Part shown: piece after piece, positions 20,032 through 47,177 of the stretch
Layout of the letters: the number at the start of each line of letters is the position of its first letter
How positions within the stretch are numbered: position 1 is the first letter of the stretch
From: Deferribacteraceae bacterium
GTDB taxonomy: Bacteria > Chrysiogenota > Deferribacteres > Deferribacterales > Deferrivibrionaceae
Assembly (NCBI GenBank): GCA_020054865.1
Contig: JAIHAR010000002.1
Location: forward strand, 62,001-126,000
Direction of reading: 5' to 3'
Length of the DNA stretch: 64,000 nucleotides
Translations under genes and position numbers: made by a program
The notes under the pieces: generated by a model
Told to the model about the DNA's origin: nothing
The model's input: only the letters and a program-made list of their open reading frames with translations
Databases searched by the model: none

Positions 20032-20484
20032 ATGCACATAATTTTCAGACAACATGATCAATTTTTCAGTGTGGAAGATAATTTTGTTGAAATGTTTATG
20101 TTATCAAAGCATTATTACACTATTTCTATCGTACCGGATTTTATAAACGGCTTTGAAAACATAAAGGGGGATATTTACCCTATAATCAGCATTTTCGGCA
20201 TTGTTAATAAAGAACCGCAGAAAGAGTCCCCACTTTACCTTCTAAAACTTAAAGAGCCATACAATATGTTACTATACAGCACTGTAAAGCCAAATCTTAT
20301 TGAAATTCTGGAAAACACACCAAAAGTTGAAATGCAGGCAAATCTGAAAGGGGTTTGCAACTTCGCATTCAGAATGGGCAATGATACTATTTACAATTTA
20401 AATCTTAATAAAATTGAAAATTCACTTATAGATTACCAAAAGTACAATATGAACGGAGATGCTTATGATAAAAAAAGTATTTAG
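20032..20484 (+). CDS. CheW-like adaptor protein (divergent)
   Basis: CheW proteins link receptors to CheA. The 150-residue product is a weak match, but the segment TISIVPDFINGFENIKGDIYPIISI has the order of hydrophobic and glycine residues found in CheW (P-x-F-x-x-G-x-x-x-x-x-G-x-x-x-P-x-I). It is the first gene of an operon encoding a receptor, CheA, CheB and CheR, and no other CheW is present, so an adaptor role is plausible. Its end overlaps the receptor gene by 20 bases. No ribosome site is seen; see the promoter at 19998-20025. Confidence 0.65.
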   Translation: MHIIFRQHDQFFSVEDNFVEMFMLSKHYYTISIVPDFINGFENIKGDIYPIISIFGIVNKEPQKESPLYLLKLKEPYNMLLYSTVKPNLIEILENTPKVEMQANLKGVCNFAFRMGNDTIYNLNLNKIENSLIDYQKYNMNGDAYDKKSI

Positions 20485-22633
20485 CCTAAAAACTATTGTC
20501 TACTCAAGGCTTATTTTCCTGTCAGTATTATTTTTTATATTTATGCTTTCAATATTGGCACTGACATCCAATCTTATAAACAAGCTTTATGATAAACATA
20601 CCTATTTAATCCAGGAAAACATCGTAGAATTGATTGAGTCAAAAATCGATGCTGAAGTTAGCAATATTGAAAACACCTTTACCAAAATCCATCTCATGGC
20701 TGATAAAAACAATGGAAATATTTATGAGGTTATAAAAAATTCCTCGGCCGGAAATAATACCAAATTTAATCTGTATGAATTTTCTGATCAAACGTATCTT
20801 TTGATATATGCAAGCTCGGAAAAACCGGCAAATACTATTAAATTTAATCCGGAAATAACAACGGCTGTTTATGCAGGTGGAAGCAAAATATACAAATCCC
20901 TTTCAAAAGACAATATCATTTTGAACGGATATTACGGATATGAATATAAAGACAAAAAATACGTTTTGCAAGTATATAAGACTGTGCCATTAAAACTTGC
21001 TCAGGTTGAAAATCTTGAGATTTTAAATGACGCTTCTTACAAATTTGTTGGATTTGATAATGAAGAAATCGGGGCATCCACCAAAAATATCAATGTAAAC
21101 CCAAATACACATTTTGTATCAGCCACAAAACAATTTATAAAAATATCTTTTGACACAAGCAAAGATACTGCAAACGCAAGCACACTAATAATCGTTGGTC
21201 TTTTAATACTTTTTATATTCTGGCTTATAACAGAAATTTTCTACTATAAATTTTCCAACAAGCCTATAATAGAAATCACCAACTCACTTACCAGCATATT
21301 GAATAATGAAAGACAGGTAAATTTTAGTGAGCAGCATATTGAAGAATATGACAGGGTTTCAAAAACAATTCAGGCTGTAATTGATAAATTGTCATCCCAG
21401 CAGCAACAAATGGAAGTACTTCTTAACAGATTGCCTATCCCTGTAACGGTAATAGACAATAAATTTAATTTTATTTACAGAAACAGTTTCTTCAACAATA
21501 TGCTTTCCCTGCCTGATGATATAGGTGACCAGAATTTTCTTGATATAATTCCAGAAACATTAAAAGTAATTGAAACAAATCTCACAACTTTTATGAATTC
21601 TCCAAAGCAAAAAGATAAATTTGAACTGTATGACCCGAAAAAAGATGAATACTATATCGTAAGATTTGGGAAAATTTCAGATGAAAAAGGGAAAACCGTT
21701 AATACCATTATCCTCTTCAATGATATTACTTTCCAGAAAAAAGAGTTTGAAAATCAGAAAAAGAGAAAAGAAGAGATTGAAAATATTCTTCTAAACATTG
21801 AAGAGTCTGTAATGAGGCTGTCTGCATCATCTTCAGAATTAAAAACTTCTGCAGAGTCCCTTAGCACAATGCTTGCACAGCAAAACACAAGCCTTGCTGA
21901 AACAAATGTTGCTATACAGGAACTTACGACCTCAGCAGACAACATTCTTACAAAAACAAAACACATACTTGATGTCTCAGGAAAGGTTGACAACGCCTCA
22001 CAGGTTGGATTCGGAGAGGTGGAAAAGTCTGTAGTGAAGTTAAACTCCGTAATTAAAATTACCGACGAATTGACAGATACAATCTTTCAACTTAATAAAA
22101 AAACACACAATATAAATAAAATATTGAAGACAATATATGAAATTTCCGAGCAAACAAATCTGCTTGCCTTAAATGCATCAATTGAATCAGTTAGAGGGGA
22201 AACCAACAGTATGGCATTTAAAATCATTGCTGAAGAGATAAGGGAGCTTTCAGACAAGACCTACAGTTTCAGCAAAGAAATAGAAAAAGAGGTCGAGGAA
22301 ATAACTGATTTCGGCTCAAAATCTGTTATGACAGTTGAAGAGGCAGAAAAATTAATTAAAAACATGCTGGAACATATGCAGGAAAACAAAGGAAATTTTG
22401 AGTTTATCAAGAATGAAGCAGACCATATAAACAAACATTTAATAGAAATAAATGAAGTAATAAAAGATTTGAACAATGCTTCAAATGACATTCTGACCAC
22501 GTCAAACGACCTGTCTCTTGCTATGAAAGATGCTCTTAAATCAGCAAAAGAATCTCAGGATGCAAGCCAGGATGTAGACAGCGTTATCAAAAATTTAAAC
22601 GAAACACTGGCTCATTTGGGTAAACTTAAGTAA
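20465..22633 (+). CDS. Methyl-accepting chemotaxis-type receptor with PAS domain
   Basis: The 722-residue receptor has a membrane helix at ~15-38, a periplasmic sensor region of ~190 residues with no family I can name, and a second helix at ~238-260. A cytoplasmic PAS domain (~315-425) leads to the signalling coiled coil (~430-722). The tip reads EQTNLLALNASIESVRG followed by AFKIIAEEIRELSDKT. This matches the MCP core but differs from the usual AAIEAARAGE, which suggests a dedicated, non-standard CheA/CheW partner. GGAG six bases before 20465 fixes the start over an ATG at 20459. The stop overlaps the CheA start by one base. Confidence 0.9.
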   Translation: MIKKVFSLKTIVYSRLIFLSVLFFIFMLSILALTSNLINKLYDKHTYLIQENIVELIESKIDAEVSNIENTFTKIHLMADKNNGNIYEVIKNSSAGNNTKFNLYEFSDQTYLLIYASSEKPANTIKFNPEITTAVYAGGSKIYKSLSKDNIILNGYYGYEYKDKKYVLQVYKTVPLKLAQVENLEILNDASYKFVGFDNEEIGASTKNINVNPNTHFVSATKQFIKISFDTSKDTANASTLIIVGLLILFIFWLITEIFYYKFSNKPIIEITNSLTSILNNERQVNFSEQHIEEYDRVSKTIQAVIDKLSSQQQQMEVLLNRLPIPVTVIDNKFNFIYRNSFFNNMLSLPDDIGDQNFLDIIPETLKVIETNLTTFMNSPKQKDKFELYDPKKDEYYIVRFGKISDEKGKTVNTIILFNDITFQKKEFENQKKRKEEIENILLNIEESVMRLSASSSELKTSAESLSTMLAQQNTSLAETNVAIQELTTSADNILTKTKHILDVSGKVDNASQVGFGEVEKSVVKLNSVIKITDELTDTIFQLNKKTHNINKILKTIYEISEQTNLLALNASIESVRGETNSMAFKIIAEEIRELSDKTYSFSKEIEKEVEEITDFGSKSVMTVEEAEKLIKNMLEHMQENKGNFEFIKNEADHINKHLIEINEVIKDLNNASNDILTTSNDLSLAMKDALKSAKESQDASQDVDSVIKNLNETLAHLGKLK

Positions 22634-24561
22634 TGATAGATGATAAGAAACTAAGAGACCTATTTGTTGACGAAGTTTTGTATCATATAAGGTCAGCCCG
22701 TGATTTTTTGAACAAGTCTTTTGAATCATCTCAAGTCAGCAATGAAGTCTTTAAAATTGTCAAAGTTTTTCACACCATCAAGGGCTCTGCAGGCATTATG
22801 GGGCTTGAGAGGTTTGGAGACATTCTTCACAAGTGTGAAAATTTCTTCCAGACTATATCAAATAAAGGGTTTACGCCTGACAGCAAAATAAAATCTATTC
22901 GCATAATAGATGAAATAGAAGCCCTTATTACAAACTTCCCTAAAAACTTTGATGAGTACCTCGACAAACTGGAAACATTAATAAATAGTAATGAGGTACC
23001 GGACATTGAGAAAGAGCCCATAACAAACACCGAAATCAAAGAAGAAACCTCCTCAATTAAAAATGTAAATGAGGATATTATTCGCCAGGTCAGGGATCTT
23101 ACAGAGGAGCTGACCCAAATCGTAGAATTTAGCTTTAAACCTAACAGCTCCAGGGAGAAAGAAAAGTATAAAGAAAAAATATCGGAACTTTTTCACTATA
23201 TTGAAAGCATAACACTATTAAACCTCGAAGAAATTGCTCCCAAAATAAAAAACATTGCCCATTATACCGCTACAAAACAGAATAAAAATATTAAAATTGA
23301 AATAAACTTCAACAAAATAGGCGTAGATAAAAATTTTTTCAGCATTGTCGAGGAAGCACTCATTCACCTTGTCCGAAATGCAGTATCTCACGGCATTGAA
23401 GTCCCCGATATCAGATTAAAAAAAGGTAAAGAGAAAGCAGGTATAATAAAAGTCAATGCGTCAAGCACGGGCAGTAAAATAAAGATTCTGGTAGAAGACG
23501 ACGGCGGTGGTATTGATTCAGGCAAAATTGCAAAAAAAGCAGTAGAAATGGGGATTATAAGTGAAAATGAAGCAAAGACTTTACCTGAAACGAGACTACT
23601 TGAATTTATCTTCACACCAAACTTTTCTACTGCTGAAAAAATTGACAATATCAGCGGAAGGGGAGTTGGGCTTGATATCGTAAAGGAAAGGATTGAAGCT
23701 ATCGGTGGAATTGTCAGAGTTAAATCTTCTGAAAAAGGCACTGTCTTTACTCTTGAAATCCCGGTATCGTTTAACATTCTACACTGCATTGTAATATCAA
23801 CCGAAAAAGAAAAAATAGGGATACCGGTATATTTAGTTGATAAGTTTATTAAAATAAATAAAGATAATTTTGATTCCGTAAGTGGCAGGCTAATATACAA
23901 TGACAAAGAATACAATATAGTTCATACCGGTAGTCTGGTCCAAAAAAATGTGGGCAATGAAAGCCTGGCAGTTATAATCAGAAACAAAAATACTATTATC
24001 ACTTGTGAAAACTATGAAGGCGAAAAACTCTTTACTGTAAAGGAGGTTCAAGGTATTTTAAAAACTATTCCCCATATAATCGGGTTTGCAATAGATGACG
24101 ATTTAAGACCCCTTGCGATAATAAATCCCCTTACAATAGGCTCAAAGAACAATTTTGTGCCAAATAACGTAAATGATAGCCCCTCAGTAAACTCCAAAAA
24201 CAGGCAATATAAGGCACTGGTAGCTGACGATAATGCACTTATAAGAGAAATGATTTCAGACTTTTTAAAAAGTATTGATATAAAAACCGTTATTGCAAAA
24301 AACGGCAAAGAGGCCCTTAAAATATATAAGTCTCAAAAATTTGATTTAATAATCACTGACATAGAAATGCCTGAAATGGATGGGATATCTCTTTTAAAAG
24401 AGATAAGAGAATCTGACAAAATTGTGCCTGTACTTATACTAAGCTCACGTGGTGAAGATAATGATATTACACTTGCTTTCAAAAGCGGTGCAAATGGGTA
24501 TTTTGTAAAAAAATTCTTTTCCAGAGAAAACTTTATTAAAAAGGTAAAAACGCTAATATGA
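22633..24561 (+). CDS. Hybrid chemotaxis kinase CheA-REC (FrzE-like)
   Basis: The 642-residue hybrid has an Hpt domain with phospho-accepting His47 (KVFHTIKGSAG) and a kinase domain with N box VEEALIHLVRNAVSHGIE and G boxes (EDDGGGI, GRGVGLDIV). A CheW-like domain (~380-500) and a C-terminal receiver (~525-640, DLIITDIEMPEMDG) follow. No P2 CheY-binding domain is seen, which fits a protein whose response regulator is built in. FrzE of Myxococcus has the same design. The start overlaps the receptor stop (TAATG) and the end overlaps cheB by four bases. Confidence 0.92.
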   Translation: MIDDKKLRDLFVDEVLYHIRSARDFLNKSFESSQVSNEVFKIVKVFHTIKGSAGIMGLERFGDILHKCENFFQTISNKGFTPDSKIKSIRIIDEIEALITNFPKNFDEYLDKLETLINSNEVPDIEKEPITNTEIKEETSSIKNVNEDIIRQVRDLTEELTQIVEFSFKPNSSREKEKYKEKISELFHYIESITLLNLEEIAPKIKNIAHYTATKQNKNIKIEINFNKIGVDKNFFSIVEEALIHLVRNAVSHGIEVPDIRLKKGKEKAGIIKVNASSTGSKIKILVEDDGGGIDSGKIAKKAVEMGIISENEAKTLPETRLLEFIFTPNFSTAEKIDNISGRGVGLDIVKERIEAIGGIVRVKSSEKGTVFTLEIPVSFNILHCIVISTEKEKIGIPVYLVDKFIKINKDNFDSVSGRLIYNDKEYNIVHTGSLVQKNVGNESLAVIIRNKNTIITCENYEGEKLFTVKEVQGILKTIPHIIGFAIDDDLRPLAIINPLTIGSKNNFVPNNVNDSPSVNSKNRQYKALVADDNALIREMISDFLKSIDIKTVIAKNGKEALKIYKSQKFDLIITDIEMPEMDGISLLKEIRESDKIVPVLILSSRGEDNDITLAFKSGANGYFVKKFFSRENFIKKVKTLI

Positions 24562-25568
24562 CTGACAAACTAAAACTATTCATTGTTGATGATTCTGCAT
24601 ACATTAGAAATTACCTCAAATCTAACCTTAAAGATACATTTGAAATTGTGGGTGAAGCAAAAGATGGTGTGGAAGCACTTAAGATTGTTTACTCTATAAA
24701 CCCTGACATAATCGTTCTTGATCTGATGATGCCAAAAATGACTGGCGATGCTGTTGCAAAAGCTATTATGTCTACAAAACCGATCCCAATTATACTGCTT
24801 ACATCTTTAACTGATGCTGAAATAAAAAAATCGTTTAATCTCTTAGAAAATACCGTTGTTGATATTATTAAAAAACCGATAGAACTTGATGAAAACTTTA
24901 TTGATAATCTCAAAAGAAAAATAAAAATCTGTGCCAATCTCAAAATAAACAAAGTTGGTGAAACACTCGCTCAGGCACTAACAACACCCAATATCGAACA
25001 TAAAAGTAAATATATACTGACTATTGGGGTTTCAACAGGTGGTCCAAAAACATTAAAAAATATTATCCCATTTCTTACATCTATAAAAAACCTCCCCTTG
25101 ATAGTTGTTCAACACATTGAGCCAGACTTTGAAGCCGGTTATTTAAACTGGATAAAGGATTTTTCCAATAAAGAAACTGTTTTGATAAACAAAAAACTAA
25201 GGCTTGATGACAGGCTGTTTATTTGTTCGCCGAAATTCAATGTTGAAATAGAGTCAAAGGGGGAAACTGCCTATCTTTTTCCTGTGGAAACGACGCCAAA
25301 CCAACTGTTTTTCCCAAGCATTGACAACATCGTATCAAATATTGCATATAAACTGAAAAATAGACTTATTCATATTCAACTTACAGGGCTTGGAAATGAT
25401 GGTCAGCATGCCTCAAATTTGGTTAAAAAGCTTGGGGGTATCGTAATTGCACAAAAACCTGAAGCCGCCATTGCAAGCTCAATGCCAAGAGCAGTAATGG
25501 ACATAGCAGACTATGTACTTGATCTTACACAAATAAATGAAAAAATAATGGAGATATTAAGGGTATAA
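24558..25568 (+). CDS. cheB: Protein-glutamate methylesterase CheB
   Basis: CheB removes methyl groups from receptor glutamates and so opposes CheR. The 336-residue protein has an N-terminal receiver (Asp55 in IIVLDLMMPKMTGD) and a C-terminal esterase domain. The esterase domain has the catalytic serine in GVSTGGPKTL, the histidine in VVQHIEPDF and the aspartate in TGLGNDG. All are intact. It overlaps CheA by ATGA and the next gene by one base, so expression is tightly coupled. Confidence 0.94.
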   Translation: MTDKLKLFIVDDSAYIRNYLKSNLKDTFEIVGEAKDGVEALKIVYSINPDIIVLDLMMPKMTGDAVAKAIMSTKPIPIILLTSLTDAEIKKSFNLLENTVVDIIKKPIELDENFIDNLKRKIKICANLKINKVGETLAQALTTPNIEHKSKYILTIGVSTGGPKTLKNIIPFLTSIKNLPLIVVQHIEPDFEAGYLNWIKDFSNKETVLINKKLRLDDRLFICSPKFNVEIESKGETAYLFPVETTPNQLFFPSIDNIVSNIAYKLKNRLIHIQLTGLGNDGQHASNLVKKLGGIVIAQKPEAAIASSMPRAVMDIADYVLDLTQINEKIMEILRV

Positions 25569-26959
25569 TGATTTTGGCGCTTGTAAAAAAGCCTTTACTT
25601 AAGGCTCAGTTAAAAAACTATTTCGATGAAATATCATTTTACGACTCACCTATTGAACTTGCCCAGGATATCCACAAACATCCCGAAATAGCGCTGATTA
25701 TTGAAAATACAGGTTTTGAAATCAGCGGATTTTTATTTTCTGCCATAATCGACAATTTAATACCCGATAGGGTATTTCACATCTATCTTGTTACAAACGA
25801 CACATCCAAATCGTTTCTTGTCAACAAGACTTTCCATAACATACATACCGTTTCATACAATAACATCAACGGACTTCTAAACGAAATAGTTTTTGACAAA
25901 TCAACAACTGTAAAAATAGACCACGAACTTTTTTATGATACTTTTGAGAAAATTTTTATTACCGAGAAAATAAAAACATTTATTATGGACTATTCAAGCC
26001 TTGTTTTAGAAAACATTTATGAACCAAATATATGGTTTATGGAATATTTTGAACTTATAAAGCTTATAACAGGGTTTGATAAAATAATTATCAAAATCAC
26101 CCATGATGACAAGCATATTATATTTTCAAGTATTAACAATTTTAGAGAATATCACATTCTTATGAACGAAATCTCAAGAGATTTAAATGACTCAATTTTA
26201 ATCACCCCTGACAACTTTTACCAGATTGAAAATGAAGATAGCTTTGTAAAATACAATATTGAATCATTCAATGAAAAAATAGGTGAAATTATCTTCTTAT
26301 TTTATAAATCAGCCTTCAGTGAGGATTTTCTGAAGTCTGTTTTGAAATTTCTCCTCAATCCTATTAAAATTTTCAAATGGTATAACTCATACCAATATCT
26401 TAAAAACAGGGTAGAATCCAAAAATAACATAACAAGAATCTTTTCAAATATCCTGAAAAATCTTGGGAAGAATATGCCTATGGCAAAACATATTGCGATT
26501 GTGGCTGAAAAATCTACATGGCTCAGTCTCAAAGCACAAAATGATATTTACTATATTATCACTACTTCTCCGGCTGAAATATGCTCAATCCTTTATATAC
26601 ACCTCAACAATCTACTGTCTGAAGGCGAAAAAGAATTTAAAGATATTATCTATTCCTTAAACAGCTTTATACATAAAAATATACTTCACCTTTACCCAAT
26701 GCCTCTTGGAATACTTAAAGTTGATGAAGATAAAATAACTTTTTCAGCTACTGAAGGAATAATAGGGCTATATAAATCAGCTACCTCAAAAAAAATTATT
26801 GAAACAGGCATGCAATATTTCGGAACATATGATATAATAAATCCGGTGATTAAAGAATTTTCTTACGATGATGAGACAAAAATTCAAATTTTACCTGACT
26901 TATTTTTTTGTACATTTAATGAGAGAAAAAAAATAATAAATGACTTTTTAAAAGGTTAA
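25568..26959 (+). CDS. Unrecognised 463-residue protein within the chemosensory operon
   Basis: No family is recognised with confidence. The frame fully overlaps the operon logic: it starts one base inside cheB and ends three bases before cheR. Residues 1-115 have the alternating strand-helix pattern of a receiver but lack the acidic cluster and phospho-aspartate. Residues ~165-280 look GAF-like. From ~310 to 463 the order of hydrophobic and small residues (YIIT...SLNSFIHKN...MPLGILKVDEDKITFSATEG...YFGTYDIINPVIKEFSYDD) resembles a SpoIIE/RsbU PP2C-type phosphatase. The metal-binding aspartates (DVSGHG, TDG) are absent. I infer a pseudo-receiver and pseudophosphatase, from pattern only. It has no membrane segment. 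Confidence 0.7.
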   Translation: MILALVKKPLLKAQLKNYFDEISFYDSPIELAQDIHKHPEIALIIENTGFEISGFLFSAIIDNLIPDRVFHIYLVTNDTSKSFLVNKTFHNIHTVSYNNINGLLNEIVFDKSTTVKIDHELFYDTFEKIFITEKIKTFIMDYSSLVLENIYEPNIWFMEYFELIKLITGFDKIIIKITHDDKHIIFSSINNFREYHILMNEISRDLNDSILITPDNFYQIENEDSFVKYNIESFNEKIGEIIFLFYKSAFSEDFLKSVLKFLLNPIKIFKWYNSYQYLKNRVESKNNITRIFSNILKNLGKNMPMAKHIAIVAEKSTWLSLKAQNDIYYIITTSPAEICSILYIHLNNLLSEGEKEFKDIIYSLNSFIHKNILHLYPMPLGILKVDEDKITFSATEGIIGLYKSATSKKIIETGMQYFGTYDIINPVIKEFSYDDETKIQILPDLFFCTFNERKKIINDFLKG

Positions 26960-26962
26960 TCT

Positions 26963-28339
26963 ATGAATGCAGAAAAGATAGACGAAATAAAACATCTCGT
27001 TAAGGTCTATTCGGGACTTCTGATTAAAGAAAGTCTCGAAATGAAATTTGATGAAACATACAAAACCTGGGTGGCCAGGACAGGGAATAATCCTTATAAG
27101 CTTGCCGACCTTTTAAAAAACAATACGGAAATGTTGCGGGAGTTTATTTCAGATTTGACTATAAATGAGTCTTATTTTTTCAGAAATGCCGAGCAATTTA
27201 AATGTATTGACCAAATTGTATCAACCCCTATCAATAAAAAACCTGAGATTAAAATTCTCTCAATAGGGTGTTCGAATGGGTGCGAACCTTATTCCATTGC
27301 AATTTATATACATAAATATCTCCCTGAAATATTTAAAAAAATATCAATAATCGGTATCGATATCAGTCAAAAGGTAATTGATATAGCCAAGAGTGGAGTT
27401 TATCAAAGCTGGTATTTGAGACATACCAGAAAAGAATTTCAAGAAGAATATTTTGAAATGACAGAAAACAATCAGTTTGCTGTTGTTGACAAAATAAAAA
27501 ACAAAGTGCAGTTTGAGACAGCAAACTTTCTGGACTATGAAGCGGCCGAAAAGTACCAAATAATCTTCTGCAGGAATTTTCTTATATACTTTGAACCGGA
27601 TACTGTTAATAAGATTTGCGATAAAATTGCCAATTTAATTGACAAAAATGGTATCGTCATATTTGGCAACTCAGATGCCCTTCTTGTCAACCAATCCGAT
27701 TTAATCAAAAAAGGCTGCTATTATACAATAGATGTAGCTACCGAAGAAAATATTAAAAATATTAACGATATATCAGTGCGTGTATCTTATGACATCAACT
27801 CAAAAGTCAACAGGCCCAAAAAAGATGAGTCGGAAGTGTTTAAAAAAGGGGTGCAGTTTATAAAATCGGAAGACTACGTTGAGGCTGCAAAGGAATTTGA
27901 GTTTATACTGACAAATATTAACCCCAAAAATATAAGGGCAGCTACATTCTTAGGTTATTCATATTACAAACTAAACAATCTAAGTCAGGCTAAGGCGGTA
28001 TTAAAAAAGGTATTGGACACCGAATCCTTATCCTATGAGGCATATTTATTGTATGCCATAATCCTTTACGAAGAAAAAAACTGTGCAGAGGCACTCGAAT
28101 ACTTAAGAAAGGCACTTTTCATTAACCCTCAAAGTGAAATAAGCTGGTTTTATCTGGGTAAAATATATGAATGTCAAAAAGAAACTTCTTCTGCAGTAAA
28201 TGCTTACAAAAAAGCCCTGTCCTTTCTTGAATTGCTGCCTGAAAATAAGAAGTACCCTTTGTCACCCGAGATTTCATCAGGTATGTTAAAAGAATGGATT
28301 ACCAACAAAATCAGTGAGATTGAAAAAGGCAGTCATTAA
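26963..28339 (+). CDS. cheR: Chemotaxis methyltransferase CheR with C-terminal TPR (FrzF-like)
   Basis: CheR methylates receptor glutamates using S-adenosylmethionine. The 458-residue protein has a CheR helical N-domain (with INESYFFRNAEQF), the SAM-binding motif LSIGCSNGCEPYSIAIYI and the catalytic-domain segment YQIIFCRNFLIYF. About 170 residues of TPR repeats follow (GVQFIKSEDYVEAAKEFEF and two or three more units, ~290-430). TPR-fused CheR is typical of Frz-type and other non-flagellar chemosensory systems. It is the last gene of the operon. The cysteines in GCSNGCEP differ from the usual ACSTGEEP. Confidence 0.93.
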   Translation: MNAEKIDEIKHLVKVYSGLLIKESLEMKFDETYKTWVARTGNNPYKLADLLKNNTEMLREFISDLTINESYFFRNAEQFKCIDQIVSTPINKKPEIKILSIGCSNGCEPYSIAIYIHKYLPEIFKKISIIGIDISQKVIDIAKSGVYQSWYLRHTRKEFQEEYFEMTENNQFAVVDKIKNKVQFETANFLDYEAAEKYQIIFCRNFLIYFEPDTVNKICDKIANLIDKNGIVIFGNSDALLVNQSDLIKKGCYYTIDVATEENIKNINDISVRVSYDINSKVNRPKKDESEVFKKGVQFIKSEDYVEAAKEFEFILTNINPKNIRAATFLGYSYYKLNNLSQAKAVLKKVLDTESLSYEAYLLYAIILYEEKNCAEALEYLRKALFINPQSEISWFYLGKIYECQKETSSAVNAYKKALSFLELLPENKKYPLSPEISSGMLKEWITNKISEIEKGSH

Positions 28340-28381: not shown

Positions 28382-28675
28382 TTAGAAAGACTTTAGTATA
28401 TCCTTTTTAAGCTCATCAAGCTCTTCATCGGTAGTTTTTCCAAAATCCACATTGCCAATTAATTTGCCAACTTTCTGCAAAATTTCTTTGTCAGAGTTTC
28501 CTATTTCTGCAAGAATATCAGAGATAAAAGCAAGTTTTTTTGCATCAGTAGAAATACTTACTTTATCAAGACTTTTTTCGGGGGAAGATTTTTCCTGGGC
28601 AGATGCCTTACTGTATTTCACCTGCTTGTTATAAGTCCTCAAAATGTCATAAATCTTTCCGCCCTGTATAGTCAT
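28382..28675 (-). CDS. flgM: FlgM-like anti-sigma-28 factor
   Basis: The 97-residue protein is small and probably flexible in its N-terminal half. The middle segment SLDKVSISTDAKKLAFI matches the FlgM consensus (D-K-V-x-I-S-x-x-A), and the C-terminal half forms helices as in sigma-28-binding FlgM. A near-consensus sigma-28 promoter lies immediately upstream (28709-28735), as expected for flgM autoregulation. FlgM holds FliA inactive until the flagellar hook is complete and then is exported. The gene lies alone between cheR and gatA, away from other flagellar genes. Confidence 0.75.
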   Translation of the reverse strand: MTIQGGKIYDILRTYNKQVKYSKASAQEKSSPEKSLDKVSISTDAKKLAFISDILAEIGNSDKEILQKVGKLIGNVDFGKTTDEELDELKKDILKSF

Positions 28676-35407: not shown

Positions 35408-37891
35408 TTAAAATCTTCCCCTAAGGGTGATATAAAATGCACTGCTTGTTTTTCCCCACTGACTAAAACTTTTTGCATATGAGATACTTATATCCCCTAT
35501 TCCCATATCTACATTAAACATTAGACCGACATCCTTATAAAAAGGAGTGCTGCCGCTTTCATAATAAACTTTACCAGCTTCAAAAAAAGGACCTATCATA
35601 ACATTTTCAACAATCTCGTATGGCATTCCAAAATTTAAGTGAAAGTATCCTGTGCCACCATATACATTTCCAAGTTCATCCTCAGGCCCTAATTCTCTTA
35701 ATGAGAAAGCTTTCATCATCTTTTGTCCGCCGAGAGTAAACCTATAAAGTAATGGAGTAGACTCAGTATTACCTAAAATTTTTCCTGCATTTAAGTCCAG
35801 ACTCGTATAAAAATTCCCCCAGATTTTCTTTTGCAAAAAAAAGTTCGTTTCCACAGTAAGAAGACTAAAATCTGACTCCAATAACATGTTATTGTCAATA
35901 CTGACACTAAAAGGGAAAAGCAATAGGTTGGAATTTAGTTTATTAAATGAATACTTGAGAGGTATTTTAAGAAATCGGTATTTTTTGTTGTAGTGGTTAT
36001 TTGCAAAATTGGCATCATATATTTTTAAATTTTCAGCAAATAAACCGTAATCAAGCCTGAAGCTTTCACCGTAAATGCTCTCCATATATCCAAACCTCAG
36101 ACCTTTATATTTAAAATCATCCATATCTTTTTTGAAATAATTGGTACTGTAGTTAATTTTCAATATATTGTCGTATAATTTTGAAAGCTTAGAAAGTCCT
36201 AAAAGGTAACTTTCCTCTTTTTTTGAAAACGTTACAGATGAATCCAACACATACTCGGTACCTAAAACACCAAATCTCTTATAACCTAATGATAATATAA
36301 ACTGGTCGACATTGTTGTACTGCAAATCGATAAACATTAAGTTCTTTTTGGCTTTTTTAAAGCCGAATACTATATCGGCATCTTCATTATCCTGAATTAC
36401 ACTTAACCTGTAATCGTTTATGTTGAGACTGTTTTTAATCACATAACGGATATTTTCTATTTTTTTTATAGTGACAACTTCACCCCGTTTTATCCTTTTT
36501 AAAATAATTTTCGTTATTCTTTTGTCCTCTGTCAGGACATCTCTTAGGTAAAGTTTTTTAAAATCACTTTTAAAATAGATATCAACCGTATTGTTATCTT
36601 TATTGTATACAACTTTATCCTCTATAATGTAATTATAATAGTATTCCTCTCTCAATTTATTTTTAATTTCATTTAAAATTGCATTTTTTGCCTTATTACT
36701 GTAAAACTCATTAAAATTAGTCAAAAATGTTTTATCATTTAGATAAACATTACCGATACGTGCCTTGTCTTTTAAATTAATATCTATCAAAAGACTGTTT
36801 TTTTCACGACTGATTGTCAAATCATATAAATAATAACCAATCCCGTTTAATATATTCTGTAGCAGATTTTTTATCTCAGGAACATCAGACAGTTGCTCTT
36901 CATTTAAAACACTGATTATACTATCCGGATTAACTCCACCATTTATTTTGACATCATATTTATATTTCTCTTTCTGCTTGAGTGAATTAACATTTACAAC
37001 TATTTCATTGTCATCTAAATTAAAAAACAGATCACTCCCAAATTCGTCTATTAATGCAAGATATGTTTTGCCCACACTGTAGCTGTCAGGGTTTTTCAGA
37101 TTCTTAACAACAATATCAATAGCCTTATCAATCAAATTTTCAGGAAGTCCTTTAATGTTAAAATTATATCTTTTTGATTCGTTTATTTTGATTACAAGGC
37201 TAACCGTTTTATGAAAAGAAGGTAAAATCGACAATATGGAATTAAGCGGAAAATTTAAATCTAAAAATGGTCTACCGGTAGATTTTTCGTAGTAGATTTG
37301 ATAATCAGGAAAAAGTATGCCATCTTTCTTTATTTTTTTAAGCTCCTGCTCTTTTATACCATCAATTAGCTCTTGAGTAAGAATTTTTGGAATGATAAAT
37401 TTTTCTGAATATATTTCTTTATCTTTATAATATACTGCCATTTCAGTTAAAACATATAACTTTCCTTCATTTATAAAAATATCAAGTATGCCATTGTTAA
37501 ACTTATAATAAACTTCCACATCAAGAAAACCGTTATCTTTATAAAATTTTCTTATTTTATCTGTATAATTTTCAAAAGTATCAAGGTATACCGGTGAATT
37601 ATCATAAAATGCCGCAGCCGAAATTATAGTGCTATCCAGAAAATTAATATTTCCGTGAAGTCTCAGTTTATCAACATTTAAAGATTCGAATATTTCAAGC
37701 TTTTCTTCGTTAAGCTCATATGAATAGACATTTAACGATTCCAGAAGTGTCTTGATATCATCATATCTTTTCTTATTAGCGTATTCCTCTATTTTAAGAC
37801 GTATATTCTCATTTATATCCCCTTCAATCTCAAAAGAGTACGCCAGATTACACACAAGATTAAAAAGAATAAAATATACTAAAGCCCGCAC
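35408..37891 (-). CDS. tamA: Omp85-family outer-membrane assembly protein, TamA-like
   Basis: The 827-residue protein has a signal peptide (ALVYFILFNLVCNLAYS), a long periplasmic part with several POTRA-like units (~75-500) and a C-terminal beta-barrel (~510-827) ending in the outer-membrane signal FYITLRGRF. The barrel contains FTLGGQKMMKAF, close to the Omp85 lid segment. It starts at a GTG with GGGAG five bases upstream and overlaps the tamB-like gene by 32 bases. That pairing makes a TamA role (insertion or lipid transport with TamB) more likely than BamA. It is the last gene of a ~15-kb operon. Confidence 0.82.
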   Translation of the reverse strand: MRALVYFILFNLVCNLAYSFEIEGDINENIRLKIEEYANKKRYDDIKTLLESLNVYSYELNEEKLEIFESLNVDKLRLHGNINFLDSTIISAAAFYDNSPVYLDTFENYTDKIRKFYKDNGFLDVEVYYKFNNGILDIFINEGKLYVLTEMAVYYKDKEIYSEKFIIPKILTQELIDGIKEQELKKIKKDGILFPDYQIYYEKSTGRPFLDLNFPLNSILSILPSFHKTVSLVIKINESKRYNFNIKGLPENLIDKAIDIVVKNLKNPDSYSVGKTYLALIDEFGSDLFFNLDDNEIVVNVNSLKQKEKYKYDVKINGGVNPDSIISVLNEEQLSDVPEIKNLLQNILNGIGYYLYDLTISREKNSLLIDINLKDKARIGNVYLNDKTFLTNFNEFYSNKAKNAILNEIKNKLREEYYYNYIIEDKVVYNKDNNTVDIYFKSDFKKLYLRDVLTEDKRITKIILKRIKRGEVVTIKKIENIRYVIKNSLNINDYRLSVIQDNEDADIVFGFKKAKKNLMFIDLQYNNVDQFILSLGYKRFGVLGTEYVLDSSVTFSKKEESYLLGLSKLSKLYDNILKINYSTNYFKKDMDDFKYKGLRFGYMESIYGESFRLDYGLFAENLKIYDANFANNHYNKKYRFLKIPLKYSFNKLNSNLLLFPFSVSIDNNMLLESDFSLLTVETNFFLQKKIWGNFYTSLDLNAGKILGNTESTPLLYRFTLGGQKMMKAFSLRELGPEDELGNVYGGTGYFHLNFGMPYEIVENVMIGPFFEAGKVYYESGSTPFYKDVGLMFNVDMGIGDISISYAKSFSQWGKTSSAFYITLRGRF

Positions 37892-40800
37892 CGTTGCTCC
37901 CGTTGTTATTTGAAATTACATTAAAATTTAACCAGTCAAACAGTGTGTAGTAACCAACAATTTCATCCCCTTTCTCACCACTTTTAAGCCTGTATACTAC
38001 TTTCAACCTATCCGTGAACGTCCTGCCGATAGAAAAATATCCAAGACTCTGGTAGTCATTATCAATTCCTATGCTGTTTATCCCAAAAAACTTATTTGTA
38101 ACAGAAAGTATGTTTGCAAATGCTTCACCACTAAAAAGGTCACCTATCAGGTTTCCGGTTGCATTATTCTTTGACTTAAGATTTGCAAAACCAGCTCCAC
38201 CGGGGGAAATATCTCTTATTTCAACACTGTATTCGGGCAGAAAACCCTTTATGTTTAGCAAAATATATTTATAATTGCCTGTGCCTTTAGAAAATATGTT
38301 CAGAAAAGGTGGTTTTTTCTCAGACAGAGTGAGCTTACCCTGCAAAATGTTAAACCTCTCACCACCCAAAACCAGATATGAATCTGTTGATTCAAGGTAA
38401 CCCGTAACTGTAAGCTCTTTATTATATTTTAAACGCAAATTAAAGCTCAGTTTTGAATCAAAATATTTATTTTTAGTTGTCACAGGGTTTACACTTTTAA
38501 TTGTCAAATCGATATCAAATGGAATTTTTTTATTTCCACCGGATTTCCTGAATTCTTTAAATTCGTAATCCCCTTTAATTATATTCACGTCACCAGACAA
38601 TTTATTTTTTGAGTACTGAACATACCCTTTTACTGTACCGGTAAAGTTTGCAGCATTTACAAATACATTGTCAAACACAATGCCCAGGAAACTGTCAGAA
38701 ACTCTTCTGAAATCAGGCACACTAAAGCTTCCATCAATATTGCTATCAAGATAGTTCATTGAAAATACACCAGATATCCCCTTACCTTTAAAATTTGTTT
38801 CCAGGCCGATATCATTTAAATTTACCCCATAATCTGGGATATATAACCTGAATTTCCCTTTCAGGTTTCCATATAAATTTAAACCATTCGATTCATTATC
38901 CATGCTAAATTTTACATCCCCTGTCAATGAATGCTCTTTTATACCATGAAAATTCACTGAAACGTTATCAACAGTTATCATACCTTTAATTGTTTTATCT
39001 TTATAATCAATATTGTGAATCAGCAGATTTTGAATCTCATTTGTACTAAGATGAAAAGAAGCATTGTTAACAGAAAAATCATGCAAATTAAAGTTTGAAG
39101 AAAAACTGCCTATATTAAAATTTCTTCCTCCAAACAATCCTTTGAAAACCCCATTTTTAATCTCTATATTTTTAAAATCTTCGGAGCTAAACTTGAAATC
39201 TCCACTTAACCTATTGATATCTTTAAAGTCAAACTCATTTATTGTGCCATGGCCTTCAAGTAGGCTTTTTAAAGGAAATATCACCACTTCAAAAATAGCA
39301 TTTTTGCTTCTGGCAGATAAATTTAATTTTTCTTTTTTGCCATTTAGCCTTATATGAAATGCTTCTTTAAGTTTATCCTCTTCAGCATCAGCTTGAAAAA
39401 ATATTTCCGGATCGTTTATGTTGCCATTTATTTTTAAAGAGATATTTTTCAGGTTAATGATCGAATCTATAAATTGCCCTTTATCTATATCCAGATTTAT
39501 CTTTTTACTGTCAAATTCAAATGTACCTATGTCAAAATATTTATTGTTATCGATTTCAAGCTGGCTAAAAATCAATTTTTTGTTTTTTATTCTGCTTTTA
39601 AAATAAACTTTTCTGTCGCGAAAATTTGATGTGCCGTCAATCGTACCTTCAAGCACTTTGTTATAGCCTATCTCATAATGACCTATGATATTTTCATTTC
39701 TGCCTTCATAAATGCTGTTTAAATTTAAAGTATAACTACCCTCAGTAAAATATGAAAAACCGCTGTCGCTTCTCTCAGCATAGCCTGACCCTTGCGCCAT
39801 ATTATTATCTCTAAGCAAAGAATATTCAAAAGACAGTTTATTGTTATTAAATAAAAAGTTAACATCCAGACTGTCAAAAGAAAACTTTTTGTAAGTCAGA
39901 CCTTTATTTGTGCTTATTTCCCCTCTCACTTTCAAGTTTCCGTCGTAATTGATATCAATTGCGGTATTCAATTCATGTTGTATGCCTGTCAGATTTTCAA
40001 GATATGGGTTATTTGTAACCTTGCCTGTAAAATGAAACTCATAGCGATTTTTATCAATTATCTGGCCGCCACCTGAAACATCAATACTTTTTGATTTAAT
40101 AGACAAATCTTTTAGAAAAATCATATCTTTTATAATAAGACCGGAGCTGATAACTATTTTTTCGTTCCAGAATATTTCGGCATTAAGCCCAAATTTCTTC
40201 GTGCCATAATCCCCTGATAATTTAGCCTTTTCAATAAAAACTTCCTGGTTATAAAATCTGAAAGTTTTCCCCTTTATGTCGTCAATCAGAATACTGATAT
40301 CTTTTTTTTCGGGCTCAATAGCTCCTTTGGCAAAAAATGTAAAATTATCAAATGTTATATTATCACTGTCAAAGTAAAATTTTTTACTATCGCCATTAAA
40401 ATTGAGCTTCCCTGTAAAGGACTTATCATTAAATCTCAACAAACTTAAATTGGCTTCTGCATTCAGCTTGCTATTTTCAAATTTACCCGTTGCAACTATT
40501 TCACCACTTAAACCACCATGAATCAATTTTAAAATATCATCCCTTGCATATAAGCTGAAATTACCGTTCACAGCCCCCTGAGACAGGTTTAAATCATTTA
40601 ACAAAATAAAAATATTCTTGCCTCTAACTGTCGCCTTTTCAATATTTACAATATTTGAACCAACTGCCCCCTGCATATCAACATTAAATTCTTCATTTAT
40701 ATGTCCATTTTTAATGCTTACGTTTTCAATATGTGCATTTATCCTTTTACTGTCATATTCTCCTTTTTTTACATTACCTGTAAAGTGATAATCTTTATAC

Positions 40801-41201
40801 TGGCCGTTTACAATAATGTCTGAAAGTATTATCTGTTGAATAAAATACGGCTCAAAATGTTTTTGGCCACCCCCTACCTTATTGAAACTAAACTCCCCCT
40901 TTGAAATTTTTAATCGCAAAAAACTTGAAAAAATGCCTTTTAAGTCCACGTCAGCCCTAACTTCCTCAAAATAACCATCCATGTCATCAGAATGAATTGA
41001 AAGATTTGAAACATCGATAAAAAAAGGGAAAAAAACAGTATTGATTTTACCAATCTCTACAAACTCTTTTTTAATATTAAAAAAAGAAAGTATCTTTTCA
41101 GGGTATCTGGCAATGACTATATTAATAACTATAAGAGCAAATGATATTACAATCGTTAACCAGAGGAGGACTCTGAAAGTCCTCTGTAAAATTTTTGTCA
41201 T
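37860..41201 (-). CDS. tamB: TamB-like translocation/lipid transport protein (DUF490)
   Basis: TamB spans the periplasm from the inner membrane and works with TamA; family members carry phospholipids to the outer membrane. The 1113-residue protein has an N-terminal membrane helix (~12-33), a very long stretch of beta-strand repeats typical of AsmA-like bridge proteins, and a C-terminal DUF490-type end (SIGRTFTDRLKVVYRL ... FSIFYSF) that resembles a barrel-docking strand. The start codon overlaps the amidase stop (TGATG). Gene order tamB then tamA, overlapping, supports the pair. Confidence 0.86.
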   Translation of the reverse strand: MTKILQRTFRVLLWLTIVISFALIVINIVIARYPEKILSFFNIKKEFVEIGKINTVFFPFFIDVSNLSIHSDDMDGYFEEVRADVDLKGIFSSFLRLKISKGEFSFNKVGGGQKHFEPYFIQQIILSDIIVNGQYKDYHFTGNVKKGEYDSKRINAHIENVSIKNGHINEEFNVDMQGAVGSNIVNIEKATVRGKNIFILLNDLNLSQGAVNGNFSLYARDDILKLIHGGLSGEIVATGKFENSKLNAEANLSLLRFNDKSFTGKLNFNGDSKKFYFDSDNITFDNFTFFAKGAIEPEKKDISILIDDIKGKTFRFYNQEVFIEKAKLSGDYGTKKFGLNAEIFWNEKIVISSGLIIKDMIFLKDLSIKSKSIDVSGGGQIIDKNRYEFHFTGKVTNNPYLENLTGIQHELNTAIDINYDGNLKVRGEISTNKGLTYKKFSFDSLDVNFLFNNNKLSFEYSLLRDNNMAQGSGYAERSDSGFSYFTEGSYTLNLNSIYEGRNENIIGHYEIGYNKVLEGTIDGTSNFRDRKVYFKSRIKNKKLIFSQLEIDNNKYFDIGTFEFDSKKINLDIDKGQFIDSIINLKNISLKINGNINDPEIFFQADAEEDKLKEAFHIRLNGKKEKLNLSARSKNAIFEVVIFPLKSLLEGHGTINEFDFKDINRLSGDFKFSSEDFKNIEIKNGVFKGLFGGRNFNIGSFSSNFNLHDFSVNNASFHLSTNEIQNLLIHNIDYKDKTIKGMITVDNVSVNFHGIKEHSLTGDVKFSMDNESNGLNLYGNLKGKFRLYIPDYGVNLNDIGLETNFKGKGISGVFSMNYLDSNIDGSFSVPDFRRVSDSFLGIVFDNVFVNAANFTGTVKGYVQYSKNKLSGDVNIIKGDYEFKEFRKSGGNKKIPFDIDLTIKSVNPVTTKNKYFDSKLSFNLRLKYNKELTVTGYLESTDSYLVLGGERFNILQGKLTLSEKKPPFLNIFSKGTGNYKYILLNIKGFLPEYSVEIRDISPGGAGFANLKSKNNATGNLIGDLFSGEAFANILSVTNKFFGINSIGIDNDYQSLGYFSIGRTFTDRLKVVYRLKSGEKGDEIVGYYTLFDWLNFNVISNNNGSNGAGFSIFYSF

Positions 41202-42850: not shown

Positions 42851-45652
42851 TTATAATTTGCCTTTTAAATATTTCCCTGTATGGGATTTTTCACATTTCA
42901 CACAGTCCTCAGGTGTGCCTGTAAAAATAACCTCTCCACCTTTTTCACCACCTTCTGGACCCAGGTCTATTATATAGTCTGCACATTTTATTACGTCAAG
43001 GTTATGTTCAATAATTACTACCGAATTATTACCATCAACAAGCCTTCTGAATATTTTTATCAGTTTGCTTACATCGTCAAAGTGCAAACCTGTGGTGGGT
43101 TCATCAAAGATATACAACGTTTTTCCGGTAGAACGCTTCATCAATTCCTTGGCAAGCTTTATCCTTTGCGCCTCACCACCTGAAAGGGTTGTCGCAGCCT
43201 GACCAAGTTTTATATAACCAAGCCCCACATCCCTCAGCACTTCTAATTTATTTAAAAGTTTTGGTATATTTTCAAAAAATTCATATGCCTGGTTTACTGT
43301 CATATCAAGCACTTCAGCAATATTTTTCCCTTTGTACTTTATATCGAGCGTATCTCTGTTGTACCTTTTACCACCGCATACGTCGCATTTTACATACATA
43401 TCAGGTAGAAAATGCATTTCAATTTTTATGTACCCTTCCCCCTGACAATTTTCACATCTGCCACCTTTTACATTAAAGCTGAATCTTCCCGGCTTATATC
43501 CTCTTAATTTCGAATCGGGCAGTAGAGCAAATATTTCCCTTATATCATTAAAAATGCCTGTATAGGTAGCAGGGTTCGACCTCGGAGTCCTGCCGATAGG
43601 GGACTGATCTATGTCTATTACTTTGTCTATGTAATCTACCCCTTTTATATCTTTGTGCTCTCCAGGTTTCTGTGTCCCAAAACCTATTTTCCTTTTTAAC
43701 CCCTGATAAAGCACATCCATTATTAATGTAGATTTGCCAGAACCGCTTACACCTGTAATACAGGTCATCACTTCAAGTGGAATTTTTACATCTATATTTT
43801 TCAGATTGTGCGCACTTGCTCCAATTATCTCAAGGAATTTTTCAGGCTTTTTTCTGACACCTGATATTTCAATTTTTTTTCTTCCAAAAAGATAATCTGA
43901 TGTTAAAGAATTGGAAACTTCCTTAAGGCCATCGATACTGCCCGCATATACCACTTCACCACCTTTCCTGCCAGCAAATGGCCCCATATCTATAATATAG
44001 TCCGACTGCAAAATAGTATCCTCGTCGTGCTCTACAACTATCAATGTATTTCCTATATCCCTCAAACCTTTCAATGTTGCAATAAGTCTGTCATTATCCC
44101 TTTGATGAAGCCCAATGCTTGGCTCATCCAAAACATAAAGCACCCCTGTAAGCCCCGAGCCTACCTGGGTAGCAAGCCTTATTCTCTGTGACTCACCACC
44201 GCTTAAGGTAGATGCTTTCCTGTCAAGAGTGATATAATCAAGACCAACGTCAATCAAAAACTTTAATCTTCTTTTTATTTCTCTTAAAATCTTTTCTGCA
44301 ACTTCCGCCTTAAAGCCCTGAAACTTCAGATTTTCCACAAATTCCAATGCAGAGAAAATATTCATAGAGGAAAATTCTGCGATGTTAATCCCACCAATTT
44401 TAATAGCAAGACTGCTCCTCTTAAGCCTTGTTCCATCACACAAATCACAAGGCATCTCAGACATAAAACTTTTGGCATATTCGACATCACTATACTTATT
44501 GGAGTTAAGCTTATCCCTCAGATAACCAGCCACTCCATTAAATTTTGTTTTATATTTAACCTTTTTCTCCCCTTTAAAGGTAAACATTTCGATCTCTTCG
44601 TCACTTCCATTAATCAATATATCTATCTTTGACTGTTCGATATTTTTTACAGGGACATTCAGGTCTATAGAATATTTCTCCGACAAAGCAAGAAGCATTG
44701 AATAGAAATGAAAGTTGTCAAAGTGAGCCCATGGCTTTATTGCTCCTTCTCTTATACTCAAGTTTTTATCTGGAATTATTGCATCCGGGTCAAAAACAAG
44801 TTTCTCCCCCAGGCCATCACATTTGGGACATGCACCATAAGGGTTGTTAAATGAAAATATTCTTGGTTCCACTTCAGAAAAACTTATATTGCAGTCAATA
44901 CATGCGAATTTTTCACTAAAAAGATACTCTTTTTCTTCAGTTTTTATCTTGACAAGACCATCAGACAGCTTAAGAGCAACCTCTATTGAATCTGTTAGCC
45001 TTCTTGCAATCTCACTTCTGATTTTCAACCTGTCAATCACCACATTGATATCGTGTTTGACATTTTTATCCAGCACAATATCTTCATCAAGCCTCACAAG
45101 CTCCCCATCAACATAGCACCTTACGTAGCCTTCCTTGAGAAGATTTTTAAACAACTGCCTGTACTCCCCCTTTTTACCTCTGACTATAGGGGATAAAATT
45201 TCAATCTTTTCATCTTCAGGAAGTTGCATTACATTATCGACAATCTGTTGCACAGAGTAGCTTTCAATCTGCCTGTCGCAGGAAGGGCAATAAACATCCC
45301 CCACTCTTGCATACAACAGCCTAAGGTAATCGTAGATTTCAGTAATAGTGCCAACAGTTGATCTTGGATTTTTGCTAATAGATTTTTGCTCAATACTAAT
45401 CGCTGGAGAAAGATATTCAATTGAATCAACGTCAGGCTTTTCCATTAACTCAAGAAATTGCCTTGCATATGCAGACAAAGATTCCACATACCTTCTTTGC
45501 CCCTCCGCATACAAAGTATCAAAGGCAAGAGTAGATTTCCCTGAGCCACTTACACCGGTTATCACAACAAGTTTATTTTTTGGGATATCCACATTGATAT
45601 TTTTTAAGTTGTGCTGCCTGGCCCCTCTTACAAGAATAAAGTTACTGCTCAA
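42851..45652 (-). CDS. uvrA: Excinuclease ABC subunit A
   Basis: UvrA recognises DNA damage and loads UvrB in nucleotide excision repair. The ~933-residue protein has two ABC modules with Walker [10 protein letters not shown] in each half, two LSGGE signature motifs, and zinc-binding cysteine sets ([11 protein letters not shown], CxxC around 250-280, and CENCQGEG / [10 protein letters not shown]). [12 protein letters not shown]-type start ([12 protein letters not shown]) is typical. Start is ambiguous: TTG at 45652 has AGAGG eight bases away, while TTG at 45661 is the other option. It overlaps the DUF342 gene's end by 11 bases. Confidence 0.95.
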
Positions 45653-47177
45653 AATTATCAACCTCTTTTAAACTAATCCAACCTATATCTTCATATTTCG
45701 GCTCAAGAAAGAACAATACCGACTCCATCCTTTCTCTTATTTTTAATTTTTTTTCATACATCTGTATAATAACACCCTCGAAAACAGTATCTTTAACCCT
45801 GATTTTCGGTTTTTTGAATCTAAGTTGCCTTTTCAGATTTTCAATCTCTCTTAAAACTTCCTCTTTTTTGTTTAAAAGTTCTTTTTTATACTCAAGAAGT
45901 TTGATAATTTTGGGATTCGAAATAACTGCCCTTGATTTGAGATCGACTTTTGAAAGTGCCTCTGAAGCTTTTTCAATTGCCTGGCTAATTTTCTCGTAAT
46001 ATTCCTCTTTTTCTGCGACCTTATCTTCAAGTGTATAGTCATCTCCTACTTTCACAACAAAGTTTGAAACCCCCTTTGCCCCGAGATTGATACATTCTAC
46101 CTCAGTAAATGCCTGAATATAACCGCCGGCAAGCACACCTTTATTCTCCGTTGCCAATATTCTGGATTTACTATACAATTTGCTGTTATAGCAATATTTT
46201 CTAACAATAATATCACCTTCACAGTACACATTTGCATTTTCAATATAGCCGCATGTAAATTCTTTTTTGGCCTTGAAAAGGTTTTTCCCTTTCCCCTTTA
46301 TCCCACCTTTTATTACAATACTTTCACCTGAAATAATTGTACAGTCGTCACAGACGCCATCTACAATCACGTCTTTTTTTGCTTCTATCCTAAAACCGAA
46401 CAATACATCTCCGGTAACATATACAGTTCCGTTAAAGTTAATATTTCCGCAACTGTAATCAACATTTTTAACTTTAAAAAGCGGATAAACTGCCAATCTA
46501 TTGTTTTTAAAATCAACATAACCGTCTATTTCAGCATAGTATTTCCCATTTTCCTCTCTTACACCTTCAACAAGTTGTATCTCTATGTCTTTACCTTCCT
46601 TCGGAGCTATCTCCGTATTTTTTACGGTTACGCCAGGCACTCCTTTGGTAGCTGCTTTTTTAGTTATAAGAAGCTCGCCAGCCTGCACATTTATAATATT
46701 AAAGACATTTTTATAATCGACTTTCTCATCAGCCTTTAGTTCTCTTTTTTCAATTTTATCCTCATAATGCTTTATAAGTAAAGCATCTTTGCCATTTATA
46801 GGCTCAACTCCTGAGGCAATTAAAACATCTTCAATTATATTCCCAAAATCAGAAATCGTAATTGACTCTTTAATTGTCTCTTTTTTCAGCCCCACCTTAA
46901 TCCCATGTGTCTCAGCCTCGTCAAAAATATCTGTAACAGTAACCTTTTTACCATTATTAACAGGGGGATAAAGGGACAAGTAAGCTTTCATTTCGTCATT
47001 TGAAATATAAATCCTGAAAATACCCGGAATATCTCTGTCGGCCTTTATTTCTGCCTTAAACTGTTCATCTGCTTCATTGATCACATATTCATTGTCTTTG
47101 AGATGATATATATCCTTTAAAATCTTTTCAAATTTTGCTCTGTCTGTCCTGGAGACAATACCTATAATATCAGCCAA
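45642..47177 (-). CDS. DUF342/FapA family protein
   Basis: The 511-residue protein has the FapA architecture. The N-terminal half contains [31 protein letters not shown], and the middle is a right-handed beta-helix-like repeat with many V-x-G-D/E steps ([22 protein letters not shown]). A C-terminal coiled coil (~395-450) and short tail follow. In some bacteria FapA affects flagellar or polar placement, but its biochemical role is unclear. It overlaps the kinase gene by eight bases. Its occurrence with a GAF kinase upstream may indicate a shared signalling role. Confidence 0.85.

Follow-up and report, generated by a model that had tools for sequence, protein, structure and literature searches.

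CheR fused to TPR repeats has been described as a hallmark of "alternative cellular function" (ACF) pathways, and clusters with CheR-TPR are reported usually to contain a multidomain regulator (PMC3447774). Here, we analyse such a cluster in a Deferribacteraceae bacterium (order Deferribacterales; GCA_020054865.1, contig JAIHAR010000002.1, positions 62,001 to 126,000). This stretch of 64,000 nucleotides is the window, and coordinates refer to it unless another contig is named. Six co-directional open reading frames (ORFs) on the forward strand, 20032-28339, encode a CheW-type adaptor, a membrane chemoreceptor, CheA, CheB, a protein that we call X, and CheR-TPR. Their ends overlap or nearly abut (coordinates checked). 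The main point of interest is protein X, apparently a dead output regulator without its phosphorylation switch and probably also without enzyme activity.

Known systems and the design of the module

The Frz system resembles the module in two proteins. FrzE is likewise described with Hpt, HATPase and receiver domains and without Pfam P2 or P3 (PMC3945109), and FrzF is a CheR-TPR, like the window CheR. In contrast, FrzCD is described as cytoplasmic, whereas the window receptor has two transmembrane (TM) peaks; the accounts of Frz also give two CheW and the tandem-receiver protein FrzZ (PMC2535941, PMC4546325), whereas the locus has one CheW and no FrzZ. The earlier note on this DNA, made from the sequence alone, had called the system Frz-like on account of CheA with a built-in receiver (CheA-REC) and CheR-TPR. 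The layout bears this out at the level of layout, FrzE and FrzF sequences not having entered the comparison, and it is equally the Wsp design. Because all three CheAs of the source genome carry a receiver, CheA-REC was rejected as a sign of Frz. The comparison is a fair one for layout and does not amount to descent.

A Wsp operon annotated on plasmid pAZKH of Azoarcus sp. KH32C (L178) shares the membrane receptor, CheW, CheA-receiver, CheB, CheR with a C-terminal extension, and an output regulator gene inside the operon. It differs in its two CheW genes and its diguanylate cyclase regulator, the module having one CheW and an X without GGDEF. A cluster in an Acidobacteria metagenome-assembled genome (L105) has CheW, receptor, CheA-REC, CheB, regulator and CheR with a C-terminal extension in one run. 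Its regulator, composed of REC, a GAF-like middle and GGDEF, lies between cheB and the CheR gene, which is the slot of X, and the same regulator-CheR pair is present in a second Acidobacteria locus (L106). Unlike X, the L105 regulator has REC and GGDEF domains recognised by Pfam; the Cache sensor of the L105 receptor is C-terminal, and the CheR motif is CCTGEEP.

The six-gene set named in the earlier note, with protein X as its unknown member, agrees with the ORFs, Pfam and hhalign. The window CheW falls below the Pfam cut-off (E 0.16) and is a true CheW by hhalign against the CheW/P5 panel of the genome (probability 97, E 2.5e-11). The receptor contains MCPsignal (E 1e-22) and PAS_10 (E 6e-5). 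Its ATG at 20465 agrees with the start of the same-genus orthologue, and 20459 is also possible. Two hydrophobic peaks are present in 5/5 receptor orthologues, starting at residues 17 and 242 in the window receptor. Pfam finds Hpt, HATPase_c and Response_reg in the window CheA; it gives no match for P2 and also misses P3 and the adaptor domain P5. A profile comparison of P5 with CheW-like profiles gives a weak match (P 0.0015). In all five orthologues, CheA keeps its active-site motifs, namely the Hpt His, the ATP-site boxes and the Asp and Lys of the receiver, and those of CheB (receiver; Ser, His, Asp) and CheR are kept as well. Counts from a promoter and terminator scan are near the shuffled mean (43 versus 39.9; 3 versus 4.6).

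The CheA tree (31 rows) sets the module off as a long-stemmed clade with 100/100 support, separate from the flagellar CheA clade of the order, the C6-type CheAs and two Wsp-type CheAs. The module does not join the Wsp pair, which is a separate 100/100 clade; the deep branching order is unsettled. Features of the flagellar (F) class are missing, in that the module CheA lies outside the flagellar clade and the cluster contains no CheY, CheZ or motor genes. In the loci examined, neither an ordinary flagellar class nor a nearby cheY was found. As in ACF pathways, the window CheR is fused to TPR. The protein in the place of a multidomain response regulator, X, combines a receiver-like fold with additional domains but has neither a recognised REC nor a phospho-Asp.

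The source genome (G000) is a 2.1-Mb draft in 72 contigs, 88% complete. Its flagellar Che cluster, on contig C42, holds its own CheA-REC, CheZ, CheY, CheB, CheR and FliM. The window genes form a coherent, non-standard set separate from it, which supports the earlier note on this point. Contig C6 carries a third cluster, with CheA-REC, a receptor, CheW and a receiver of CheY type; it contains neither a CheR match nor cheB. The third CheR-type protein of the genome (L188, contig C69, 7336-8604) lies near two receiver-containing ORFs, on a contig with no MCP match. The C42 cluster (L047, 1899-5216, minus strand) also includes a SpoIIE phosphatase, a 106-aa ORF and a STAS-HEAT protein, which suggests partner switching beside the flagellar chemotaxis genes.

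The receptor tip and the CheR motif are both unusual. All 7 other methyl-accepting chemotaxis proteins (MCPs) of the genome have the common tip R-A-G-E-x-G-[RH]-G-F, whereas the window receptor and four fetched orthologues lack it and have a different tip common to 5/5. The CheR motif GC[SA]NGCEP is found in 5/5 module orthologues and in 0/28 other CheR ORFs, for 10 of which the search pattern gave no motif line to display. Thus, the co-divergence of tip and motif proposed from the single sequence is borne out by the orthologues. After the tip, the receptors extend for 142-143 residues, or 20.3-20.4 heptads, which is compatible with 40H, the length class into which WspA and most receptors of M. 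xanthus are reported to fall (PMC3945109). The strict methylation consensus was found in 0/5 receptor orthologues, though CheR and CheB keep their motifs.

Protein X as a candidate output regulator

X is under purifying selection: comparison with the same-genus orthologue gives pN 0.28 versus pS 0.81, and a decaying pseudogene was therefore rejected. The AlphaFold2 (AF2) model, built from two sequences, has an overall pLDDT of 57, with residues 1-140 at 70-90. Its first 106 residues show strict beta-alpha alternation. With this model, VIA-align places receivers first, the best being the RpfC REC (Z 9.0, 2.6 Å, 108 residues), and hhalign of the N-terminus against receivers scores 23.5, versus at most 19.2 in 100 shuffles. 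A receiver fold in the N-terminus is thus moderately supported. The acid pair, the phospho-Asp and the Lys are absent in 5/5 orthologues, and Glu46-Asn47 (E46-N47) is invariant at the position of the Asp. The protein that the earlier note left open appears, from sequence and model, to be the missing response regulator in degenerate form.

It is highly improbable that X is no degenerate response regulator at all but a sensor of other origin, or a protein of new fold, with a (beta-alpha)5 N-terminus that is merely receiver-like. Folds of this kind often give middling Z values, and AF2 confidence is low past residue 150, both of which would fit that idea. Receiver profiles nevertheless exceed the 100 shuffles and other profiles, and the slot of X is the regulator slot of L105.

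The middle of X shows a GAF-like order of strands and helices in AF2, at moderate to low pLDDT. The top Foldseek rows for X hold GAF domains, none at E <= 1e-3, and the middle has no profile match. For the C-terminus, hhalign against 26 diverse SpoIIE domains of the order gives probability 71 and a score of 41.6, versus at most 20.7 in 100 shuffles, below 15 for diverse unrelated profiles and at most 23.0 for the module's own five-row profiles. The PP2C-like core is the most conserved stretch of X, with 15 of 111 columns invariant. In 5/5 orthologues, no equivalents of the metal-binding motifs GGD and DxSG are seen, an invariant Pro-Asp stands where TDG aligns, and most of the metal-binding Asp residues seem to be missing; the homology itself is weak. 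The receiver part takes up the VIA-align list, and the fact that PP2C chains are not prominent there shows nothing either way.

A number of observations weigh against reading X as a former regulator. X has no Pfam match and no informative PDB sequence match, the profile search giving chance-level matches only. Narrower SpoIIE panels match weakly (probability 15; 1.0 when restricted to REC-PP2C members; 5.5, 18, 0.3 and 28 with further panels; 0.8 against a 521-aa family), and the C-terminal domain modelled alone did not fold (pLDDT 36), AF2 being unreliable there. The REC-GAF part of the Acidobacteria regulator has no sequence match to X. In the CheA tree, the join of the module to its nearest row, an Acidobacteria CheA (93/94), is flagged as possible long-branch attraction. 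Finally, no output partner was identified. Because the narrower panels are weak and the domain does not fold when modelled alone, the PP2C-like and GAF-like folds are weakly supported, next to moderate support for the receiver fold.

Some more specific proposals did not hold. A GAF-PP2C layout common to X and the order's 521-aa SpoIIE family (23 rows) is not supported. Nor is a direct sequence relationship between X and the REC-GAF regulator of the Acidobacteria cluster (score 21.2 over 29 columns, versus a shuffle maximum of 20.3 in 100). With no GGDEF or EAL match up to E 10 in X, and no GGDEF in its orthologues, X as a GGDEF or EAL protein was rejected. PADLOC returned nothing for X.

RssB offers a parallel for such a protein. 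It combines a receiver with a PP2C-like domain as an adaptor, and the E. coli form is described as being without phosphatase activity (PMC12143880). RssB chains are among the structural matches of X, the full-length matches being weak (Foldseek E 0.045 at best). RssB differs from X in that phosphorylation of its receiver regulates it and in that it has no GAF part. FrzS, linked to Frz, is reported as a pseudo-receiver without the Asp (PMC3158785). In RsbK-RsbM-RsbY, a functional parallel, a methylated hybrid kinase is described as joined to a receiver-PP2C phosphatase (PMC4574943). No chemosensory system with a degenerate receiver, or with a pseudo-receiver plus PP2C, surfaced in the literature search; wider absence is not claimed.

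Since CheR-TPR clusters usually hold a multidomain regulator and the L105 regulator occupies the same slot, we place X in the output-regulator slot. The CheA of this Acidobacteria cluster, nearest to the module CheA in the tree, points the same way. We put at about even the chance that the module is an ACF-type pathway in which this slot is held by X, a regulator turned phosphorylation-independent adaptor. In such a pathway, CheA would be under the control of CheW and of the membrane receptor with its periplasmic sensor and PAS. CheA would autophosphorylate on the Hpt histidine and pass the phosphate to its own receiver and to CheB. The receiver of CheA may serve as a phosphate sink or brake, as with FrzE, whose receiver is described as a likely phosphate sink (PMC4546325). 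CheB and CheR-TPR would set receptor modification. X, presumably unable to take phosphate in the usual way, would work as an adaptor. Its pseudo-receiver, with Glu for Asp, may have its docking site in the kinase array or in the TPR of CheR, its GAF-like part may sense a ligand, and its PP2C-like part may bind a partner without hydrolysis, as RssB does. The adaptor role, the partners and the controlled target are what we infer here. A stronger version is tentative: X would be a dedicated output regulator without both the phosphorylation switch and the enzyme, the pathway would signal by binding alone, and the adaptor would have co-diverged with the receptor tip, CheW, CheA P5 and CheR.

Alternatively, the output may be a free receiver encoded elsewhere, like FrzZ or RomR beyond FrzE, with X as an accessory, likely a partner of the CheR TPR that tunes receptor methylation. 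The genome has 52 receiver matches, at least 9 of them in frames of 121-135 aa, so free receivers are present outside the operon; the absence of a separate CheY, as claimed from the window, holds for the operon itself and not genome-wide. In addition, cheR directly follows the gene of X in the five loci read, and for FrzF it has been hypothesised that a partner bound to the TPR lifts the inhibition (PMC2535941). On the other hand, the receiver/PP2C likeness of X suggests an output origin, and no specific free receiver is linked to the module. We regard this alternative as rather unlikely, and prefer X as the adaptor in the regulator slot.

Table 1 Features of the chemosensory module and its surroundings in the window.
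Feature	Position	Strand	Description
CheW-type adaptor	20032..20484	+	150 aa, ATG start
Membrane chemoreceptor	20465..22633	+	TM, ~200-aa periplasmic part, TM, PAS, long MCP hairpin, unusual tip
CheA	22633..24561	+	Hpt, HATPase, divergent P5, C-terminal receiver with Asp and Lys intact
CheB	24558..25568	+	Receiver residues intact; methylesterase with catalytic Ser, His, Asp motifs; Pfam Response_reg, CheB_methylest
Protein X	25568..26959	+	463 aa, conserved in slot between cheB and cheR
X residues 1-112	25568..25903	+	Receiver-like (beta-alpha)5 domain (AF2, VIA-align, hhalign)
X residues 113-282	25904..26413	+	Helical linker and GAF-like domain, tentative (AF2, Foldseek)
X residues 283-463	26414..26956	+	SpoIIE/PP2C-like, first metal-binding motifs missing, tentative (hhalign)
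CheR-TPR	26963..28339	+	CheR E 1e-45, C-terminal TPR repeats, variant motif GCSNGCEP
Small FlgM-like ORF	28382..28675	-	Convergent with cheR
Omp85-family protein	35408..37891	-	
1113-aa protein	37860..41201	-	No Pfam match
FapA-type flagellar assembly protein	45642..47177	-	Beside uvrA, 17 kb from operon

Distribution and possible targets of the module

With X as a single query sequence, 99 genomes yielded 8 matches, 2 of them short fragments (G017, G031). A five-row X profile gave 7 matches over 45 genomes of the order (6 full-length and 1 fragment with stops) and 8 matches over 384 sampled genomes (6 full-length, all within this order). Weak matches were left out of the counts, namely G032 (a fragment with four stops), G128 (79 positions) and the G017 and G031 fragments. 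A close CheA is found in the same 6 of the 45 genomes as X. The order of the six genes is identical in the five loci read; in the sixth module genome (G002), the positions of CheA and X alone were seen. Thus, within the genomes sampled, the module is a real, conserved ACF-type variant confined to one bacterial order. A CheR scan of viral contigs found no relative. The CheA of a Deferribacter plasmid is flagellar-type in the tree, with no X annotated nearby.

The module may control motility or surface life. One proposal is that it tunes flagellar motility, via the flagellar CheY or flagellar gene expression. The statement that no flagellar genes lie nearby needs two qualifiers, the FlgM-like ORF adjoining cheR and the FapA-type protein farther away (Table 1). 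The former scores 25.3 of 40 for the DVU0524 family and 17.4 of 40.75 for FlgM, below both model cut-offs; a similar ORF adjoins the module in the same-genus genome G001, so that it adjoins cheR in two same-genus loci read, and none was seen beside cheR in the three other loci. FliM is over the cut-off in 6/6 module genomes, and the two genomes that have no FliM in the genus to which G018 belongs (G004, G011) have no module either. FliM is over the cut-off in 41/45 genomes of the order anyway, and the co-loss of FliM and module therefore counts as one event. In addition, the flagellar cluster has a full Che set of its own. The suspicion that the output is not the flagellar motor is partly borne out: the position of the module CheA outside the flagellar clade favours it, and the FliM pattern and the co-loss do not. 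Taken together, flagellar control is improbable.

A second proposal, also of little probability, is that type IV pili or surface behaviour are under the control of the module, in the way that Frz controls S-motility. PilT is over the cut-off in 6/6 module genomes versus 28/45 overall, and the module is present in 6 of the 25 genomes that have PilT together with FliM and in 0 of 20 others (hypergeometric 0.022, uncorrected for descent). Movement by twitching is described for Deferribacter desulfuricans, which is probably G016 (PMC3236037). There is, however, no pilus gene in the module, and the C6 cluster, without cheB or cheR, could serve pili instead. Flexistipes sinusarabici is reported in the same paper as non-motile and without cheB, cheR, cheV and cheW (PMC3236037). 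The FliM and PilT patterns and the motility reports fit a motility or surface role and choose neither.

Elsewhere in the window, the gene of the 1113-aa protein lies upstream of that of the Omp85-family protein, a layout that suggests a TamB/TamA-like pair.

Implications for chemosensory signalling

Chemosensory arrays are understood as phosphate relays. If the reading of X as a phosphorylation-independent adaptor is true, arrays with intact kinase, methylase and esterase motifs would be readable by binding alone, and the unexplained TPR domains of CheR-TPR proteins would gain, in X, a candidate partner. The module genome G016 is very probably that of the cultured Deferribacter desulfuricans, which makes the module testable.

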